A stretch of 64,000 bases of DNA from assembly GCF_001705235.1 (NCBI RefSeq), contig NZ_MCGV01000001.1, positions 2,356,001-2,420,000 on the forward strand, given 5' to 3'. The notes beneath the pieces were generated by a model. That model was not told the origin of the DNA. It worked only from the letters and a program-made list of their open reading frames with translations, and did no database searches. Origin of the DNA: Clostridium pasteurianum (lineage in GTDB: Bacteria; Bacillota; Clostridia; Clostridiales; Clostridiaceae). Shown in pieces: positions 13,211 through 62,619 of the stretch. How positions within the stretch are numbered: the first letter of the stretch is position 1; every line of letters starts with the position of its first letter. Made by a program: the position numbers and the translations under genes.

Positions 13211-13475
13211 TGAAGTAAAACATGGATACCTTTCCTTCGTTTCACTATGGAAAGCTTTTAATTTTAATTTCTTAGATTTTCGGTAGCGTTATCTTAAGAA
13301 AATCATCCATAACTTTTGCCACAGGCGAACCCTTCACCTATTAACGAGCCAAGCAAAGTTAATACCCCGCACTTCGGCTTTAGCCGATTATAACTTTTTT
13401 CATCTCGTTAGATGACGAAAAACCCCAAACTTGTTTCGCAATATTTATATTTAGTACAAGAGTTATATTTTCATA

Positions 13476-14144
13476 TTATTTGTATAGTTTTTCAAATTCC
13501 AAGTATCCATGTTTTCTAAGTTTGCAGGCAGGACATTCTCCGCAGCCATCGCCTTTTATGCCATTATAGCAGGTTAAAGTTTCATTTTTTATTATATCTA
13601 AAACTTCCAAATCATCTGCCAATTTCCAAGTTTCAGCTTTGTTTATCCACATTAGAGGTGTTATTAGTACAAACTGATAATCCATAGCTAAGTTTAAAGT
13701 TACATTTAGTGATTTTATAAAAACATCCCTACAATCTGGGTAGCCACTAAAATCACTTTGAGATACTCCTGTTATTATATTGTTTATACCCCTTTGTTTT
13801 GCAAAAACCGCAGCGAAACTTAAAAATAAAAGATTTCTACCATCAACAAAGGTATTTGGGGTACCCTCTTTTGGAGCATCTTTATCTACTTTTATGTCTG
13901 CCCTTGTAAGAGAATTAGGCGCTAGTTGATTTAAGAGTTTTAAGTCAAGTATGTGATGTTCAACCCCGTGTTTTTTGCATATTTCCTTGGCACATTCAAG
14001 TTCAAGCTTATGTTTTTGATTGTAATCAAAAGACACAGCTAATACTTCTTTGTATCTTTTTTTTGCCCAGAAAAGACAAGTTGTGCTGTCTTGTCCTCCA
14101 CTTAATACTACAAGAGCTTTTTCTTTATTTACGCTTATTTCCAT
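13476..14144 (-). CDS. queC: 7-cyano-7-deazaguanine synthase QueC
   Basis: A 222-residue protein that converts 7-carboxy-7-deazaguanine to preQ0 with ATP and ammonia. The PP-loop LSGGQDSTT is at residues 15-23 and the C-terminal zinc site [17 protein letters not shown] supplies four Cys. It is the last gene of the preQ1-controlled operon, 17 bases after folE. Confidence 0.96.
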
Positions 14145-14161: not shown

Positions 14162-14749
14162 TTATGCTTTATATAAAGCCATAAGTTTATTTACAAGTGA
14201 ATCATCAGTTTTAAATCTTCCTTTAAGAGTCATAGTGGTAGTTTGTGCTCCTGGCTTTCTAATGCCTCTTGAGGTCATGCAGCCATGTTCACCTTTTATA
14301 ATTACTGCAATGTCTCCTGAGTTGGTTATCTTTTCCATTATTTCAGCAATATCTTTCCCGATTCGTTCTTGAAGCTGAAGTCTTTTTGAAACCATATCTG
14401 CTATTCTAGCTATTTTGCTTAGACCTATAAGCCTTTTATCTGGTATATAAGCTACTGCAACATTCATGTTGTACATAAGAGTCATATGGTGCTCACAGTG
14501 GCTGAATATTTCAATGTCTTTTACAAGGACTATATTATCTTCTTCATCTTCTTTTAGGTCTTCTTCAAAGGTTTTATTAAACATATCGGCTATTTCATCG
14601 TTAGAGTAGTTCATTCCTTCAAATACTTCTGCATACATTTTAGCTACTCGTTTTGGAGTATCTTTAAGGCCTTCTCTATCAGGGTTATCTCCTAAAGCTA
14701 TTAGAATTCCTCTTACATGTTTTTCAATTGCTTTTGTATCGATAGACAT
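14162..14749 (-). CDS. folE: GTP cyclohydrolase I FolE
   Basis: A 195-residue FolE that makes 7,8-dihydroneopterin triphosphate from GTP, the first step of queuosine (and folate) synthesis. Zinc and active-site residues are in [10 protein letters not shown] and [13 protein letters not shown] 14749 follows an AGAGGTG RBS; the in-frame GTG at 14761 lies inside that RBS and was rejected. It lies just after the queE stop codon. Placement in this operon suggests its product feeds QueD. Confidence 0.95.
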
Positions 14750-14753
14750 AAAT

Positions 14754-15419
14754 TTATACACCTCTTTTATTTGAATCCCATATAATTTTGTGGATTTGTA
14801 TTTGTAAAGTTACATCATTTAGTTTGTTATCCTTCATAAAATTAACTATTGTTTCTGGAGAAATCTTGTGAAAAACAGGACTTAAGTATATATTAGTTTT
14901 TCTCAAAAGGCTAAATTTATCTATTATATTTTTTGCATTCTTAAGATCATCTAATGAACTTACTACAAATTTTACAACATCTTTTTTAGTTAAATATTTA
15001 AAGTTTGAGGTTTCCATAAAGTTTTCCATGCCGCTCTCTGGAAGCTTATAATCCATGTTAAAGGAAGGTCTGTTTTCATTTAATAGAAAGTTATTAAGAC
15101 ATATGCTGCCGTTGGTTTCTATTTCTACATTCAAAGTGTTATCACTAGCAATAAGTTCTAAAAGTTCATGCATTCCTTTTTGAAGAAGTGGTTCTCCTCC
15201 TGTAAGAGTGACATTTTTAATTCCAGTTCCCTTTATATATGAATATATTTCTTCTTGTGTCATGATTTCATACTTTACATTTTCATTATTTGCCCATTTT
15301 GTATCACAGTATATGCAGTCTAAATTGCAATGAGCAAATCTTATAAATACTGATAATTGACCTGAACGAAGACCTTCACCGTTTATACTTATAAATTTTT
15401 CAACCACTTTGTAATTCAT
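14754..15419 (-). CDS. queE: 7-carboxy-7-deazaguanine synthase QueE
   Basis: A 221-residue radical SAM enzyme that rearranges 6-carboxytetrahydropterin to 7-carboxy-7-deazaguanine. The cluster motif CNLDCIYC (Cx3Cx2C) and [10 protein letters not shown] are clear. Its N-terminus [11 protein letters not shown] is the usual QueE substrate loop. It sits 3 bases after queD. Confidence 0.95.
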
Positions 15420-15422
15420 TTT

Positions 15423-15833
15423 TTATACCTCTTTTGTGTATGAAGCACAGTTATTTGGTGTTTCATATACTGTTACTTTTTTTACATTATAATTAAGCTT
15501 AGATATCTCATCATAAAATAATTTTGAAAAGTTTTCTGCTGTTGGTCTAAAATCAAGTTCGATAATTCTAAAACCATCTTCCTTAAGGCAATTAAAAGTA
15601 AGAGATCTAAGACTACCTTTTTCTATTATTAAAGCATGATCGTAAAATCTAATAATATCTTTGATACTCATTTTTAAGACTGTGAAATCTTCTACCATGC
15701 CATCAATTAATTGACTGGATTGTATTTCAACTTGAACTTTCCATCTGTGACCGTGAATATTTGCACATTTACCTTTATACCCCCTAAGAAAATGTGCACT
15801 ATCAAAATTGTCTTCTATTTTTAATATATACAT
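15423..15833 (-). CDS. queD: 6-carboxytetrahydropterin synthase QueD
   Basis: A 136-residue protein of the PTPS fold. Zinc ligands are His14, His27 and His29 (AHF, HGH) and the catalytic Cys is Cys23. It makes 6-carboxy-5,6,7,8-tetrahydropterin from the FolE product. It lies 18 bases after the activase gene in the same operon. Confidence 0.95.
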   Translation of the reverse strand: MYILKIEDNFDSAHFLRGYKGKCANIHGHRWKVQVEIQSSQLIDGMVEDFTVLKMSIKDIIRFYDHALIIEKGSLRSLTFNCLKEDGFRIIELDFRPTAENFSKLFYDEISKLNYNVKKVTVYETPNNCASYTKEV

Positions 15834-15851
15834 AACATTACCCCCATCAAG

Positions 15852-16628
15852 TTATTCTTTGAACATAGTTTTTAATTTACTGCCGTAAAAACAGCAACCA
15901 AGTGCTCCATTAAATTGTGGATTCTTGGGAACAATAATGCTGTCATAATCGTGAGATAAGTATTTTTTTATAGCATAGTTATTTGCAACCCCTCCTGTTA
16001 AGATTAAATTTTTTGCCCTAAATTTTGCTAAAAGGGGCTTCATTTTATTGTACATTGAGTAATTTACACCAGCACATAGTCTATCCATTGGAGTTCCCTC
16101 GGCTATTTTCCCTATAAGTTCAGATTCAGAAAAGACTGCACATGTTGAATTTAATTTAACTGGATTTTTATAAAATGAACTCATTTCATCAAGTGGAACT
16201 TCTAAAACAGTTGCCATATTTTCAAGGTATCTACCGCATGAAGCAGCACATTTTTCGTTTAATTCTAGATCCTTTATAAATTTATTTTCAACACGGGCTA
16301 CCTTGACATCTTGCCCACCTATATCAAGAAGTACGAAATCATAGAGTTTTGTTTGATACATAGCTCCATAAACGTGAGCCTTAATTTCATTTATGGGTTT
16401 AAACATTGATAGGTTAGTATTGTTTTTACCATAACCTGTTGAAACGGCTCTATCAATATCACTTATGTTAAGCTTGCCTAAATCTACTTCAATTTTGTTA
16501 TTTTTATATGAGCAGTAATTTTTATAAAAATTTATTGTACTTATTTTAAAGTAATCACAAATTTTATTATCTTCCATAAGTGCAAGTTTTACTTCTCTAC
16601 TTCCAAGATCAATACCTAAAATTCTCAA
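15852..16628 (-). CDS. HgdC-like ATP-dependent Fe-S activase (BcrAD/BadFG family)
   Basis: A 258-residue member of the ASKHA-fold activases that use ATP hydrolysis to push an electron into a partner dehydratase or reductase. The N-terminal phosphate loop is GIDLGSREVK, the second is LLDIGGQDVK, and the cluster-binding Cys127 and Cys163 lie in NEKCAASCGRYLE and STCAVFSES, at the spacing expected for a [4Fe-4S] cluster shared across a dimer. Its ATG overlaps the stop of the HgdB-like gene by 4 bases, so the two are translationally coupled. Family assignment is firm; the substrate of the pair is unknown. Its location in a queuosine operon is the clue. Confidence 0.88.
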   Translation of the reverse strand: MRILGIDLGSREVKLALMEDNKICDYFKISTINFYKNYCSYKNNKIEVDLGKLNISDIDRAVSTGYGKNNTNLSMFKPINEIKAHVYGAMYQTKLYDFVLLDIGGQDVKVARVENKFIKDLELNEKCAASCGRYLENMATVLEVPLDEMSSFYKNPVKLNSTCAVFSESELIGKIAEGTPMDRLCAGVNYSMYNKMKPLLAKFRAKNLILTGGVANNYAIKKYLSHDYDSIIVPKNPQFNGALGCCFYGSKLKTMFKE

Positions 16629-17626
16629 AAGATTCCCTCCTTAGCATCAAGAAGCATGTCCAAGAAAGCTTCAATTCTTAATTTGGTTCTAGCATCAAGA
16701 TGGTTTAATTTATCGCCTTCTATGTTTAGTACAGGTATTTTTAAATTTTTCTTTATTACTATGTCTTGAATACCTCTGTAACAAAAGGCTTGTGTATAAT
16801 GTATGATTCCATCCAGTTTTCTTTCATCAATCTGCTTTTGTATTTCCGTTATCCTAAAATAAACATCATAAGGATAAGTGTAGTCCCAATATTGCTCATA
16901 TATATTTTGAGCTTTATAAGCTCTTGGAAAGGCAAATTCTCTTTGGACTTCGTTATAAACGATGTGGGCACTAAAGTTTTCAACAAATTCATATATATCA
17001 GATGTCATAGGAGGCACACCAATATAGCCGAGACGAAGTACAGAAGGACTTGACTGCCTCTTAGATATAATATGTATTGTTTCATTTATATCATGCTTAA
17101 AAAGGCTCATATCATGATTTAAATCACTAAAGGATATTTGCCATATATGATTTTCAAGTGCAGTGGCTTTGTTATCCTTATAAGTTAAGTTATCTATTTT
17201 TATTCCGAGTTTGCGTATTTCATTTAATTCGGCTCTTACTTTCTCCACTTCACTCAAGGTAACTCCAAATAAATTCATAAAATTATCAAGTTCACGCCTT
17301 ACATCAGTTATATTGTGGCTTGATGGATATGAAAATGGATATACTTTTATTCCTTTCATGGAGAGGACTTCTGTCAGAGCTTTTGTATTTGAGCAGTCGC
17401 CATCATGTACACCAACTATTTCAGTTATGTTGTTACTAATACAAGCTCCATATATACCTTTTATCCATGCACAAAGACTTCTTGGAAATCCATCTTTTTC
17501 AGCTTCATCTATATATTTAGAATAATTTTTAGATCCTACAAATAAGTTATTTAAATCAACAGGAGTGTATCCTGCAGCCAGTAACACTTCAATAGGAACA
17601 GTAGTGGTTAAACCTATTTTTTTCAT
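16625..17626 (-). CDS. HgdB-like 2-hydroxyacyl-CoA dehydratase family protein
   Basis: A 333-residue protein of the HgdB/BcrC/FldBC-like family (COG1775 type). The start is ATG 17626 after a GGAGG RBS; the TTG at 17638 overlaps the RBS. It has only four Cys (52, 62, 78, 282). Those in PRSLCAWIKG, HDGDCSNT and QAFCYRG fit ligands of one [4Fe-4S] cluster, while the six Cys needed for a double-cubane cluster are absent. There is no second, HgdA-like subunit. It is the first gene after the preQ1 riboswitch and partners the activase downstream. A role in 7-deazaguanine or queuosine chemistry is inferred from context only. Confidence 0.82.
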   Translation of the reverse strand: MKKIGLTTTVPIEVLLAAGYTPVDLNNLFVGSKNYSKYIDEAEKDGFPRSLCAWIKGIYGACISNNITEIVGVHDGDCSNTKALTEVLSMKGIKVYPFSYPSSHNITDVRRELDNFMNLFGVTLSEVEKVRAELNEIRKLGIKIDNLTYKDNKATALENHIWQISFSDLNHDMSLFKHDINETIHIISKRQSSPSVLRLGYIGVPPMTSDIYEFVENFSAHIVYNEVQREFAFPRAYKAQNIYEQYWDYTYPYDVYFRITEIQKQIDERKLDGIIHYTQAFCYRGIQDIVIKKNLKIPVLNIEGDKLNHLDARTKLRIEAFLDMLLDAKEGIF

Positions 17627-17650
17627 ATTTGCCTCCAAATTTTTGTAAAA

Positions 17651-17676
17651 TAAAAAGGGACATAATCCGTCCCCCT
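17651..17676 (-). other. Second hairpin in riboswitch leader
   Basis: GGGAC and GTCCC pair around a 7-base loop and are followed by TTTTTATTTT, so this is a weak terminator-like stem between the preQ1 terminator and the RBS of the HgdB-like gene. Confidence 0.5.
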
Positions 17677-17681
17677 AAAAC

Positions 17682-17707
17682 AAAAAAATCTACCTCACCC
17701 GGTAGAT
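17682..17707 (-). terminator. preQ1 riboswitch expression platform (terminator)
   Basis: ATCTACC pairs with GGTAGAT around a 6-base loop, followed by a T-run. The 5' arm region (ACCGGG, 17703-17698) can instead pair with CCAGGT (17718-17713) of the aptamer 3' tail, a plausible antiterminator. Confidence 0.8.
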
Positions 17708-17713
17708 ATGTAA

Positions 17714-17753
17714 CCTGGTTTTGTTTATAGACAGGATGGATTTCGAACTGTCT
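17714..17753 (-). promoter_or_regulatory. preQ1-I riboswitch aptamer
   Basis: On the minus strand P1 is AGACAG with CTGTCT, the loop begins TTCGAAATCC, and the tail is A-rich ATAAACAAAACCAGG, closely matching the class I preQ1 aptamer plan (P1, pyrimidine-rich loop, A-rich tail that folds into P2). It precedes an intrinsic terminator and an operon containing queD, queE, folE and queC, which supports the call. Confidence 0.87.
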
Positions 17754-17774
17754 TATTAATTTTTTATCATAGTA

Positions 17775-17803
17775 ATTTTAATCTTAAATTCTTTAGCAGT
17801 CAA
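17775..17803 (-). promoter_or_regulatory. Promoter of the preQ1-controlled operon
   Basis: TTGACT (17803-17798), a 17-base spacer and TAAAAT (17780-17775) place transcription start near 17768, about 15 bases before the aptamer. Confidence 0.75.
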
Positions 17804-17813
17804 GTGTAAAATT

Positions 17814-18002
17814 TTATCTAACGTTAATTGCATCTACAGGACATGAACTTGCTGCTTCTCTAGCTGACGCCTTTAATTCAAGTGCAATTTCTGCATCAGT
17901 AGCAACTGCCTTACCATCGTCATCCATTTTAAATATATCAGGACATACTGCTGGACATGTACCACAGCCGATGCACGTTTCTTTGTCTACATGTGCTTTC
18001 AT
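17814..18002 (-). CDS. Small ferredoxin
   Basis: A 62-residue ferredoxin with Cys10, 13 and 16 in CIGCGTCPAVCP and Cys54 in SSCPVDAI, a set for one [4Fe-4S] cluster; the second cluster motif is missing and Cys20 is left over. It is acidic, as electron carriers usually are. It has its own RBS (GAGGTG) and stops just before the promoter of the queuosine operon. It may supply electrons to the HgdC-like activase, but that is only suggested by position. Confidence 0.9.
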   Translation of the reverse strand: MKAHVDKETCIGCGTCPAVCPDIFKMDDDGKAVATDAEIALELKASAREAASSCPVDAINVR

Positions 18003-20591: not shown

Positions 20592-21107
20592 TCATTTGGT
20601 AGTATGAAACACTACTGCTTTACCACGCTGTACAGCTAAAAATATTATTACAGCTACTATTGTATTTATAATTGTTGCAGGAAGTACGACTGCCATAAAT
20701 AATGCTTTAAAACTGGCAGGTAATCCTACAATTATCAGTGCTGAGCCTAAAAATACTCCTCCACTTATAACAGTTCCAATTAAAGTTGTTCCTATTATTT
20801 GTATTTTATTATTTAATTTATTTCTTAAAGGTTTTAATGCTATAAATATTACGGTTGTAGTAACAATTCTGTCTATTATATTAGGTAATTGCCCTCCTGG
20901 GAATGTAGTGGTTGCAGCTGCAAGTAGTCCTGCTATAATACCTGAGCTTATGCATGTTTTGTAGTCATCATTGATTATTATAATTATAAATAACATTGCT
21001 AGTGAGAAGTCAGGCTTCATGCCTAAAAATATAGGCGGTGTAATTTGATGTAAAACAACACCTATGGCTAAAAATAAAGAATTAATAACTAGTTTTCTTA
21101 AATTCAT
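20592..21107 (-). CDS. trpP: Tryptophan transporter TrpP
   Basis: A 171-residue integral membrane protein with about five hydrophobic segments. Stretches such as IGVVLHQITPPIFLGMKPD and AATTTFPGGQLPNIID match my memory of Bacillus TrpP (YhaG), a tryptophan permease. A tryptophan T-box leader upstream agrees. RBS AGGAG precedes ATG 21107. Confidence 0.85.
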   Translation of the reverse strand: MNLRKLVINSLFLAIGVVLHQITPPIFLGMKPDFSLAMLFIIIIINDDYKTCISSGIIAGLLAAATTTFPGGQLPNIIDRIVTTTVIFIALKPLRNKLNNKIQIIGTTLIGTVISGGVFLGSALIIVGLPASFKALFMAVVLPATIINTIVAVIIFLAVQRGKAVVFHTTK

Positions 21108-21237
21108 AATAATGCACTCCTTTTTATAATAAAATCACTGTATTCTTAGTATTCAGATATTTCAGAAAATATATGTTTTAGGTAAATAAATAATTTTACG
21201 TTAATTTTAAATGTTGTTTAAGATAAAAAATTATAAA

Positions 21238-21276
21238 TAAAAAAACTCCGCCCTAATTGATAAGATTAGGACGGAG
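21238..21276 (-). terminator. T-box terminator before trpP
   Basis: On the minus strand, CTCCGTCCTAAT pairs with ATTAGGGCGGAG and a T-run follows. It is the off state of the T-box. Confidence 0.9.
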
Positions 21277-21512
21277 ATACTTTCCGTGGTACCACCTAAA
21301 TTATGTTTAAAAAACATCGCTCTTTTCAAGTACTAGCATACTTTATCCGTTGTAACGTACGGCAAACGTTAACCACTACTCTCCATTTGGATTTCGATTT
21401 ACTCCTCGAAGGTCCATTCACCACCAATTATTGTACTAGGATCACACCATCCCCAGCTCTCTTAAACTAAATTTTATGGCTACTCTTCCTCGTCAAAGGA
21501 TTTAATTGAATT
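21240..21512 (-). promoter_or_regulatory. T-box leader (tryptophan specifier) of trpP
   Basis: The minus strand carries the T-box core AGGTGGTACCACGG (21297-21284), a terminator and, upstream, a Stem I with AGAGAGCTGGGG and GGTGTGATCC elements. The specifier loop reads GAA-TGG-ACC, giving the codon UGG (Trp). Uncharged tRNA-Trp should favour antitermination and raise trpP expression. Confidence 0.9.
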
Positions 21513-49360: not shown

Positions 49361-49535
49361 GCACCTTGTAGCTCTCCACTATAAGAGAATAGTGACAGTT
49401 CTGCATATATTATATACAAAACCAGAAAGAGTCCTTGCCAGAAATCTTTCTTCGGCCGCAGTTCCTTTTTCTATTCTTCACAGCTTGCCAGCTAAGAATA
49501 AATACTAATAACCACAGCACCTCTACCCTAGGTAA
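49361..49535 (-). promoter_or_regulatory. Lysine riboswitch (L box)
   Basis: The minus strand has the conserved L-box elements GTAGAGGTGC, TTAGTA, GGAACTGCGGCCGAAG, TCTGGCAAGGA, ACTGTCA and TGGAGAGCTAC in order. With lysine the downstream terminator should form and reduce dapA expression. The region 49536-49740 is AT-rich with no gene seen. Confidence 0.92.
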
Positions 49536-61933: not shown

Positions 61934-62008
61934 GGCCCGTTGGTCAAGCGGTTAAGACACCACCCTTTCACGGTGGTATCATGGGTTCAAATCCCGTACG
62001 GGTCACCA
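61934..62008 (+). tRNA. tRNA-Glu (TTC)
   Basis: Cloverleaf with acceptor GGCCCGT/ACGGGTC, anticodon loop CTTTCAC and encoded CCA. First gene of the cluster; identical to 62287-62361. Confidence 0.97.
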
Positions 62009-62018
62009 TTTAATTTGT

Positions 62019-62094
62019 GGGCGCTTAGCTCAGCTGGGAGAGCATCTGCCTTACAAGCAGGGGGTCACAGGTTCGAACCCTGTAGTGCCCACCA
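62019..62094 (+). tRNA. tRNA-Val (TAC)
   Basis: Acceptor GGGCGCT/AGTGCCC, anticodon TAC in CTGCCTTACAAGCAG, T-loop GTTCGAACC, encoded CCA. Confidence 0.97.
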
Positions 62095-62102
62095 CAAATT
62101 GC

Positions 62103-62179
62103 GGCTTGGTAGCTCAGCTGGTTAGAGTGCTGGCCTGTCACGCCAGAGGTCGAGGGTTCGATCCCCTTCCAAGTCGCCA
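62103..62179 (+). tRNA. tRNA-Asp (GTC)
   Basis: Acceptor GGCTTGG/CCAAGTC, anticodon GTC in GGCCTGTCACGCC, T-loop GTTCGATCC, encoded CCA. Confidence 0.97.
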
Positions 62180-62188
62180 ATATTATGG

Positions 62189-62264
<76 letters not shown>

Positions 62265-62286
62265 GATAAAATAAAATAAATAATAA

Positions 62287-62361
62287 GGCCCGTTGGTCAA
62301 GCGGTTAAGACACCACCCTTTCACGGTGGTATCATGGGTTCAAATCCCGTACGGGTCACCA
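62287..62361 (+). tRNA. tRNA-Glu (TTC), second copy
   Basis: Identical to 61934-62008. Begins the second unit of the tandem duplication. Confidence 0.97.
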
Positions 62362-62371
62362 TTTAATTTGT

Positions 62372-62447
62372 GGGCGCTTAGCTCAGCTGGGAGAGCATCT
62401 GCCTTACAAGCAGGGGGTCACAGGTTCGAACCCTGTAGTGCCCACCA
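62372..62447 (+). tRNA. tRNA-Val (TAC), second copy
   Basis: Identical to 62019-62094, including the spacer before it. Confidence 0.97.
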
Positions 62448-62455
62448 CAAATTGC

Positions 62456-62532
62456 GGCTTGGTAGCTCAGCTGGTTAGAGTGCTGGCCTGTCACGCCAGA
62501 GGTCGAGGGTTCGATCCCCTTCCAAGTCGCCA
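62456..62532 (+). tRNA. tRNA-Asp (GTC), second copy
   Basis: Identical to 62103-62179. Confidence 0.97.
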
Positions 62533-62543
62533 ATATTATATAA

Positions 62544-62619
<76 letters not shown>

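Follow-up and report, generated by a model that had tools for sequence, protein, structure and literature searches.

Organization of the locus

The window, that is, the whole stretch of 64,000 nucleotides of Clostridium pasteurianum DNA that was analysed, carries on its minus strand a promoter-like site, an aptamer and two hairpins, followed by the genes of an HgdB-like protein and an HgdC-like activase (hereafter, the pair) and then by queD, queE, folE and queC. Open reading frames and profile scores bear out this arrangement as it had been described in the original prediction, including the overlap of the first two genes by 4 bases (16625-16628). The features are as follows:

17775..17803, minus strand: promoter-like site before the leader (consensus, 10/12 matches)
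17709..17756, minus strand: preQ1-I-like aptamer with type I marks (RF00522, 17.6 bits, and conserved motif)
17688..17707, minus strand: first terminator-like hairpin of the leader, with a T run after it (consensus match)
17654..17676, minus strand: second terminator-like hairpin of the leader (consensus match)
16625..17626, minus strand, ATG start: HgdB-like gene, proposed catalytic subunit and preQ0 reductase (PF06050, invariant cysteines, fold)
15852..16628, minus strand: HgdC-like ATP-dependent activase, proposed electron pump (PF01869, TIGR00241, invariant C127 and C163, fold)
15423..15833, minus strand: queD (PF01242 and TIGR03367, cut-offs reached)
14754..15419, minus strand: queE (TIGR03963, 337 bits, cut-off 260)
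14162..14761, minus strand: folE (PF01227, 221 bits, cut-off reached)
13476..14144, minus strand: queC (PF06508, 289 bits, and TIGR00364, cut-offs reached)

The HgdB-like gene likely starts at the ATG at 17626 rather than at the listed TTG at 17638, since a GGAGG lies just upstream of the former and homologues align from there. Between positions 13300 and 18300 there are 2 terminator-like sites, both within the leader (average of 1.6 in shuffled sequences), and 24 promoter-like sites (27.7 in shuffles); these numbers are no more than chance would give, and just the placement of the sites is suggestive.

Directly upstream of the leader, and separated from it by the promoter-like site, a gene for a single-cluster ferredoxin of 62 residues (17814-18002, minus strand; PF13370, 66 bits) was found. 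A ferredoxin-like open reading frame occupies the same site in one congener (G146). The protein is a possible electron donor of the pair, but as its gene did not recur in the other loci compared, no donor is claimed. Elsewhere, the window contains a T-box leader (123.5 bits; 20592-21505, minus strand) that precedes a membrane protein of 171 residues, which we take to resemble a tryptophan transporter, a lysine riboswitch (114.7 bits; 49361-49533, minus strand), and two successive sets of four tRNA genes, alike in order and with equal scores (61934-62616, plus strand), apparently a tandem duplication.

The HgdB-like protein and its activase

The HgdB-like protein matches PF06050 with 123.3 bits (cut-off 28.4) over residues 12-329, and both this whole-protein match and its fold are those of the HGD-D superfamily (PF06050; BCR/HAD/DCCP). 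The original prediction had counted four cysteines, enough for one [4Fe-4S] cluster; the count is right, but only three of them, C56, C82 and C286, are invariant among 20 aligned homologues, and it is these that probably bind the cluster. Fold and cysteine pattern agree with those of open-site [4Fe-4S] reductases and dehydratases, for which the comparison was drawn from a part of PMC11971306. Selenocysteine was also considered, as an in-frame TGA was flagged in five orthologues; four of these are a stop just before the start codon and one is the terminal stop, and the idea was dropped.

The protein differs from its best known relatives in several respects. The double-cubane cluster proteins (DCCP/DCCP-R; 6ENO, 7YYL) are described in that same part of PMC11971306 as having six cysteine ligands, versus four cysteines, three of them invariant, here, and the window protein reaches just 49.4 bits with the corresponding profile (NF040772, cut-off 350). 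Class I benzoyl-CoA reductases (BzdNO, MbdON) and the dehydratases HadBC and HgdAB, which work with HgdC-type activases, are made of two different subunits, whereas a single HgdB-like gene accompanies the activase gene in 33/33 loci, so that the lack of a partner subunit noticed at this one locus holds throughout. Finally, benzoyl-CoA reductases and 2-hydroxyacyl-CoA dehydratases act on CoA esters, while the pair stands in a queuosine context.

The second gene encodes an activase of the HgdC type, as judged from PF01869 (95.4 bits, cut-off 31.5), TIGR00241 (166.2 bits, cut-off 125.4) and fold evidence that agrees with both. Two of its cysteines, C127 and C163, are invariant in 20 homologues; these two residues per subunit are presumably the ligands of a bridging [4Fe-4S] cluster.

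A single missing step in queuosine synthesis

In the genome to which the window belongs (4.68 Mb, 99.99% complete by label), queA and tgt lie side by side, and queH is present. QueG gave no match in this genome, and QueF (PF14489) gave none either in the genome or in the proteins of the pair. Because queC, queA, tgt and queH are there and QueF is not, the conversion of preQ0 to preQ1 is, as judged from profile matches, the one step of the de novo queuosine pathway for which this organism has no known enzyme. The earlier reading of the locus did not name this step.

The pair and QueF exclude each other

We examined two overlapping collections, a family set (187 genomes with a completeness of 90% or more) and a class set (283 genomes), using cut-offs that were chosen after the scores had been seen, the gaps between scores being wide. 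In the family set, an orthologue of the HgdB-like protein was present in 51/187 genomes, always with E <=4.4e-82 and without any further match up to 1e-20, at which threshold there is one match per genome. QueF proper was found in 51/187 (E <=1.1e-32, next matches from 1.5e-7) and QueC proper in 95/187 (E <=9.8e-44, next match at 1.7e-10). The 95 genomes with QueC divide into 50 with the pair only and 45 with QueF only; none has both, and none has neither, a count from which a 44-residue QueC fragment in a genome lacking both enzymes (G072) was left out. The pair without QueC was met in one genome of this set (G076), where the match begins at a contig end, and QueF without QueC in 6 genomes of the family set and 10 of the class set.

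The class set gave a similar picture, with the pair in 21 genomes, QueF in 34 and QueC in 44, the latter comprising 19 with the pair, 24 with QueF, none with both and one with neither. Two genomes, G234 (near a contig end) and G427, have the pair without a QueC match. When the family is removed, 36 class-set genomes with QueC remain (15 pair, 20 QueF, 0 both, 1 neither), and together with the family set this makes 131 genomes: 65 with the pair, 65 with QueF, none with both and one with neither. In the sole exception (G449), QueC adjoins proteins that match phage families, including a phage-type TGT. Besides the QueC-like protein, this region (L173, 3016-9635) encodes a fragment resembling QueE and a protein in which a phage-type TGT match is accompanied by a long insert; it looks like a phage system for 7-deazaguanine DNA modification.

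Fisher tests of the exclusion gave p values of 3.5e-28 for the family set and 1.4e-11 for the class set, both of which ignore kinship. As the genomes are related, and a tree of QueC requires 7 changes of type, only 2 of them forced (see below), these values overstate the evidence. Weak QueF matches (E 1e-7 to 1e-3, covering profile positions 1 to 54-59) occurred as well, some of them in pair-bearing genomes; the three that were checked (G085, G097 and G123) are FolE, with PF01227 scores >250 bits, and we assumed the same for the remaining weak matches of the family set.

Since QueF is absent and the pair present in so many queuosine makers, the pair very probably carries out the QueF step in the many anaerobic queuosine-making bacteria that carry it and lack QueF. 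The original prediction had placed the pair at a low-potential step of queuosine or preQ1 metabolism. Membership in the pathway is supported by these counts, which extend the association of the pair with que genes to many genomes across clostridia, so that it is not limited to one strain, and low-potential chemistry is likely from the enzyme family. The two examples that had been offered fared less well. One was the reduction of epoxyqueuosine in tRNA in place of QueG or QueH, a role suggested by the operon context and by the low-potential family to which the pair belongs. It is exceedingly improbable, as the genome of the window already has queH, and 51/51 family-set genomes that bear the pair have exactly one of QueG (39 genomes) or QueH (12 genomes), which takes care of epoxyqueuosine reduction in all of them; moreover, the absence of QueF would be left unexplained. 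Among the 51 QueF genomes of the same set, 27 have QueG, 21 QueH, 1 both and 2 neither. The other example, a reduction needed for queuine salvage, fails to account for the lack of QueF wherever the pair occurs.

A preQ1-type leader precedes the pair

The aptamer of the window scores 17.6 bits against the preQ1-I family RF00522, below the gathering score of 39, and the leaders of two homologous loci that were searched singly gave 17.5 and 25.0 bits, also below it; the leader likewise went unreported when 13 and 17 homologous loci were searched against Rfam in bulk. We noticed the homologous leaders in the upstream sequences and then counted them by pattern. Upstream DNA was examined for 42 of the 51 family-set genomes that bear the pair, and 41 of these have the motif GACAGTT..TCCTGTC there, together with an A-rich tail; in the exception, the contig ends 132 bases upstream. 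Outside the family, the motif was seen in 9/17 pair-bearing class-set genomes and missing in the other 8/17 within the upstream DNA examined, which in one case amounted to only 173 bases; these 8 count against the role proposed for the pair below. The motif is present, too, in Ilyobacter and in two more named loci (L003 and L004).

In the alignment, the 5' strand of P1 is followed by UU and its 3' strand is preceded by UC, and the leader has an A-rich tail. In the portion of PMC11625349 used here, UU and UC are given as marks of the preQ1 class I type I riboswitch. The leader thus resembles this class in its UU/UC marks, its A-rich tail and its place before que genes, but in each of the three loci searched on their own its score (17.5-25.0 bits) stays below the gathering score of 39. 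The preQ1-I aptamer first claimed at this site therefore stands as regards the conserved motif and its type I marks, and finds no backing in the Rfam score. Because the RF00522 scores lie so far under the gathering score, Rfam-based annotation may overlook copies of this common clostridial leader.

Gene neighbourhoods and exchange between the pair and QueF

The pair lies within 6 kb of queC in 43/50 family-set genomes; for QueF, the distance to queC is at most 2 kb in 38/45. Both types coexist within five genera of the family set (labels g1, g3, g9, g20 and g22). In the congener G148, the same leader stands before queD-queE-folE-queC but the pair is absent, and a different contig carries QueF, preceded by a leader of its own and a gene of the QueT transporter family; G147 has a comparable organization, but queD and the greater part of queE gave no match there, and its QueT was recognized by eye only. 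Likewise, G084 and G099 have the leader followed by queD-queE-folE-queC and lack the pair, QueF being encoded on a separate contig. Conversely, in G134-G137 the pair has kept its leader although it is separated from queC by >60 kb or is found on a different contig.

A QueC tree of 90 rows (47 of pair type and 43 of QueF type), built by a quick method, requires 7 changes of type, but only 2 of these are imposed by starred branches. The tree thus makes two independent exchanges between the pair and QueF firm as a minimum, and more than two are likely. By label, the pair is present in seven families of the class set. Clostridium akagii and C. acidisoli are among its other carriers. The plasmid records searched gave one match, a 962 kb megaplasmid of Ilyobacter polytropus (Fusobacteriota), on which the gene order is the same. 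Viral contigs and phage records were searched for carriage of the pair by phages, and gave no match.

In 33 loci, we saw no recurrent family beside the pair beyond the que genes and QueT, except for neighbourhoods common to a few close relatives. In 9/33 loci, a gene for a QueT-like transporter comes after the pair or after the associated queC; one of these loci is that of G427, which has a leader and no QueC match. Of the 9 genes, 4 were scanned, and all 4 match PF06177.

These neighbourhoods bear on two other readings of the pair. It might supply electrons to, or repair, another queuosine enzyme such as QueE, with preQ0 reduced by some other protein. Indeed, HgdC-type activases are electron donors, and QueE is a radical SAM enzyme that requires reducing power. 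We consider this very unlikely, since 45/45 family-set genomes with QueF and QueC run the synthesis without the pair, no candidate for the other protein recurs at the 33 loci, and exclusion by QueF would be unexplained. Alternatively, the pair could be an acyl-CoA dehydratase that lies in the operon by coincidence, preQ1 being obtained by uptake. Annotation is indeed generic (2-hydroxyacyl-CoA dehydratase and acyl-CoA dehydratase activase for the Ilyobacter copies), and QueT genes occur at some loci. This is extremely unlikely in view of the strict exclusion of the pair and QueF in the 131 genomes with QueC, of the preQ1-type leader before unlinked pairs, and of the absence of a second dehydratase subunit beside the pair; a full set of de novo genes would, in addition, serve no purpose.

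A candidate ATP-driven preQ0 reductase

We propose a non-orthologous replacement of QueF by the pair, which would act as an ATP-driven reductase that converts the nitrile preQ0 to preQ1, and hold this to be highly likely. Comparative genomics gives strong support to the replacement itself; the chemistry is what we infer. In hand are the replacement of QueF across genomes and operons, the preQ1-type leader, the fold, the three invariant cysteines and the activase partner. The HgdB-like protein would form a homodimer in which each subunit binds one [4Fe-4S] cluster through C56, C82 and C286, leaving one iron site open. A dimer of the activase, probably fed by ferredoxin, would hydrolyse ATP and drive electrons singly onto this cluster. 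The nitrile nitrogen of preQ0 would bind at the open iron and be reduced, in four one-electron steps, through an imine to the aminomethyl group of preQ1. The product would then enter the steps of Tgt, QueA and QueH and would also lower expression of the operon by way of the leader.

The pair and QueF would thus be alike in reaction, operons and leader type, with mutually exclusive distributions, but they have no sequence relation (the pair gave no PF14489 match) and different folds. According to the part of PMC5372742 considered here, QueF uses NADPH and a covalent thioimide, whereas iron-sulfur chemistry and ATP are expected of the pair. An ATP-costly route to a reaction for which QueF needs NADPH is surprising, and counts against a preQ0 reductase.

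It is conceivable that QueF is replaced by an enzyme that is not strictly a nitrile reductase, making preQ1 from a precursor other than free preQ0, such as the amide ADG. Passages of PMC5372724 and PMC11971306 describe ADG as an intermediate of QueC and the substrates of the superfamily as carbonyl compounds, respectively. We find this unlikely, given that the pair exists without a QueC match in G427 and G234, and that the QueC proteins of the pair-bearing genomes score as the full-length nitrile-making family. Reduction of preQ0 is retained, and the pair is likely to be a second, evolutionarily independent biological nitrile-to-amine reductase. It would use ATP-driven electrons at one [4Fe-4S] cluster with an open site and give this superfamily a biosynthetic role that does not involve CoA.

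Significance

In 2017, QueF was called the only known biological nitrile reduction, in the part of PMC5372742 cited above. The preQ1 regulons described in PMC3766115 include iunH and folE. The word dehydratase is absent from PMC3766115, PMC11130926, PMC9495176 and PMC11625349; more generally, we found no link between the pair and queuosine in the open-access literature, so that absence from print stays unproven.

The pair is very probably a case of a known superfamily with a new reaction that replaces a known enzyme. If this is true, the radical dehydratase/benzoyl-CoA reductase superfamily would gain a reaction achieved by iron-sulfur chemistry unrelated to QueF, together with an easily assayed substrate that is small and soluble, and the pair may serve in biocatalytic nitrile reduction. 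A reconstruction whose signature table, in the portion of PMC6593275 consulted, requires QueF for de novo queuosine synthesis would score pair-bearing organisms as unable to make queuosine; with the pair as preQ0 reductase, the QueF gap of many clostridia would be closed.
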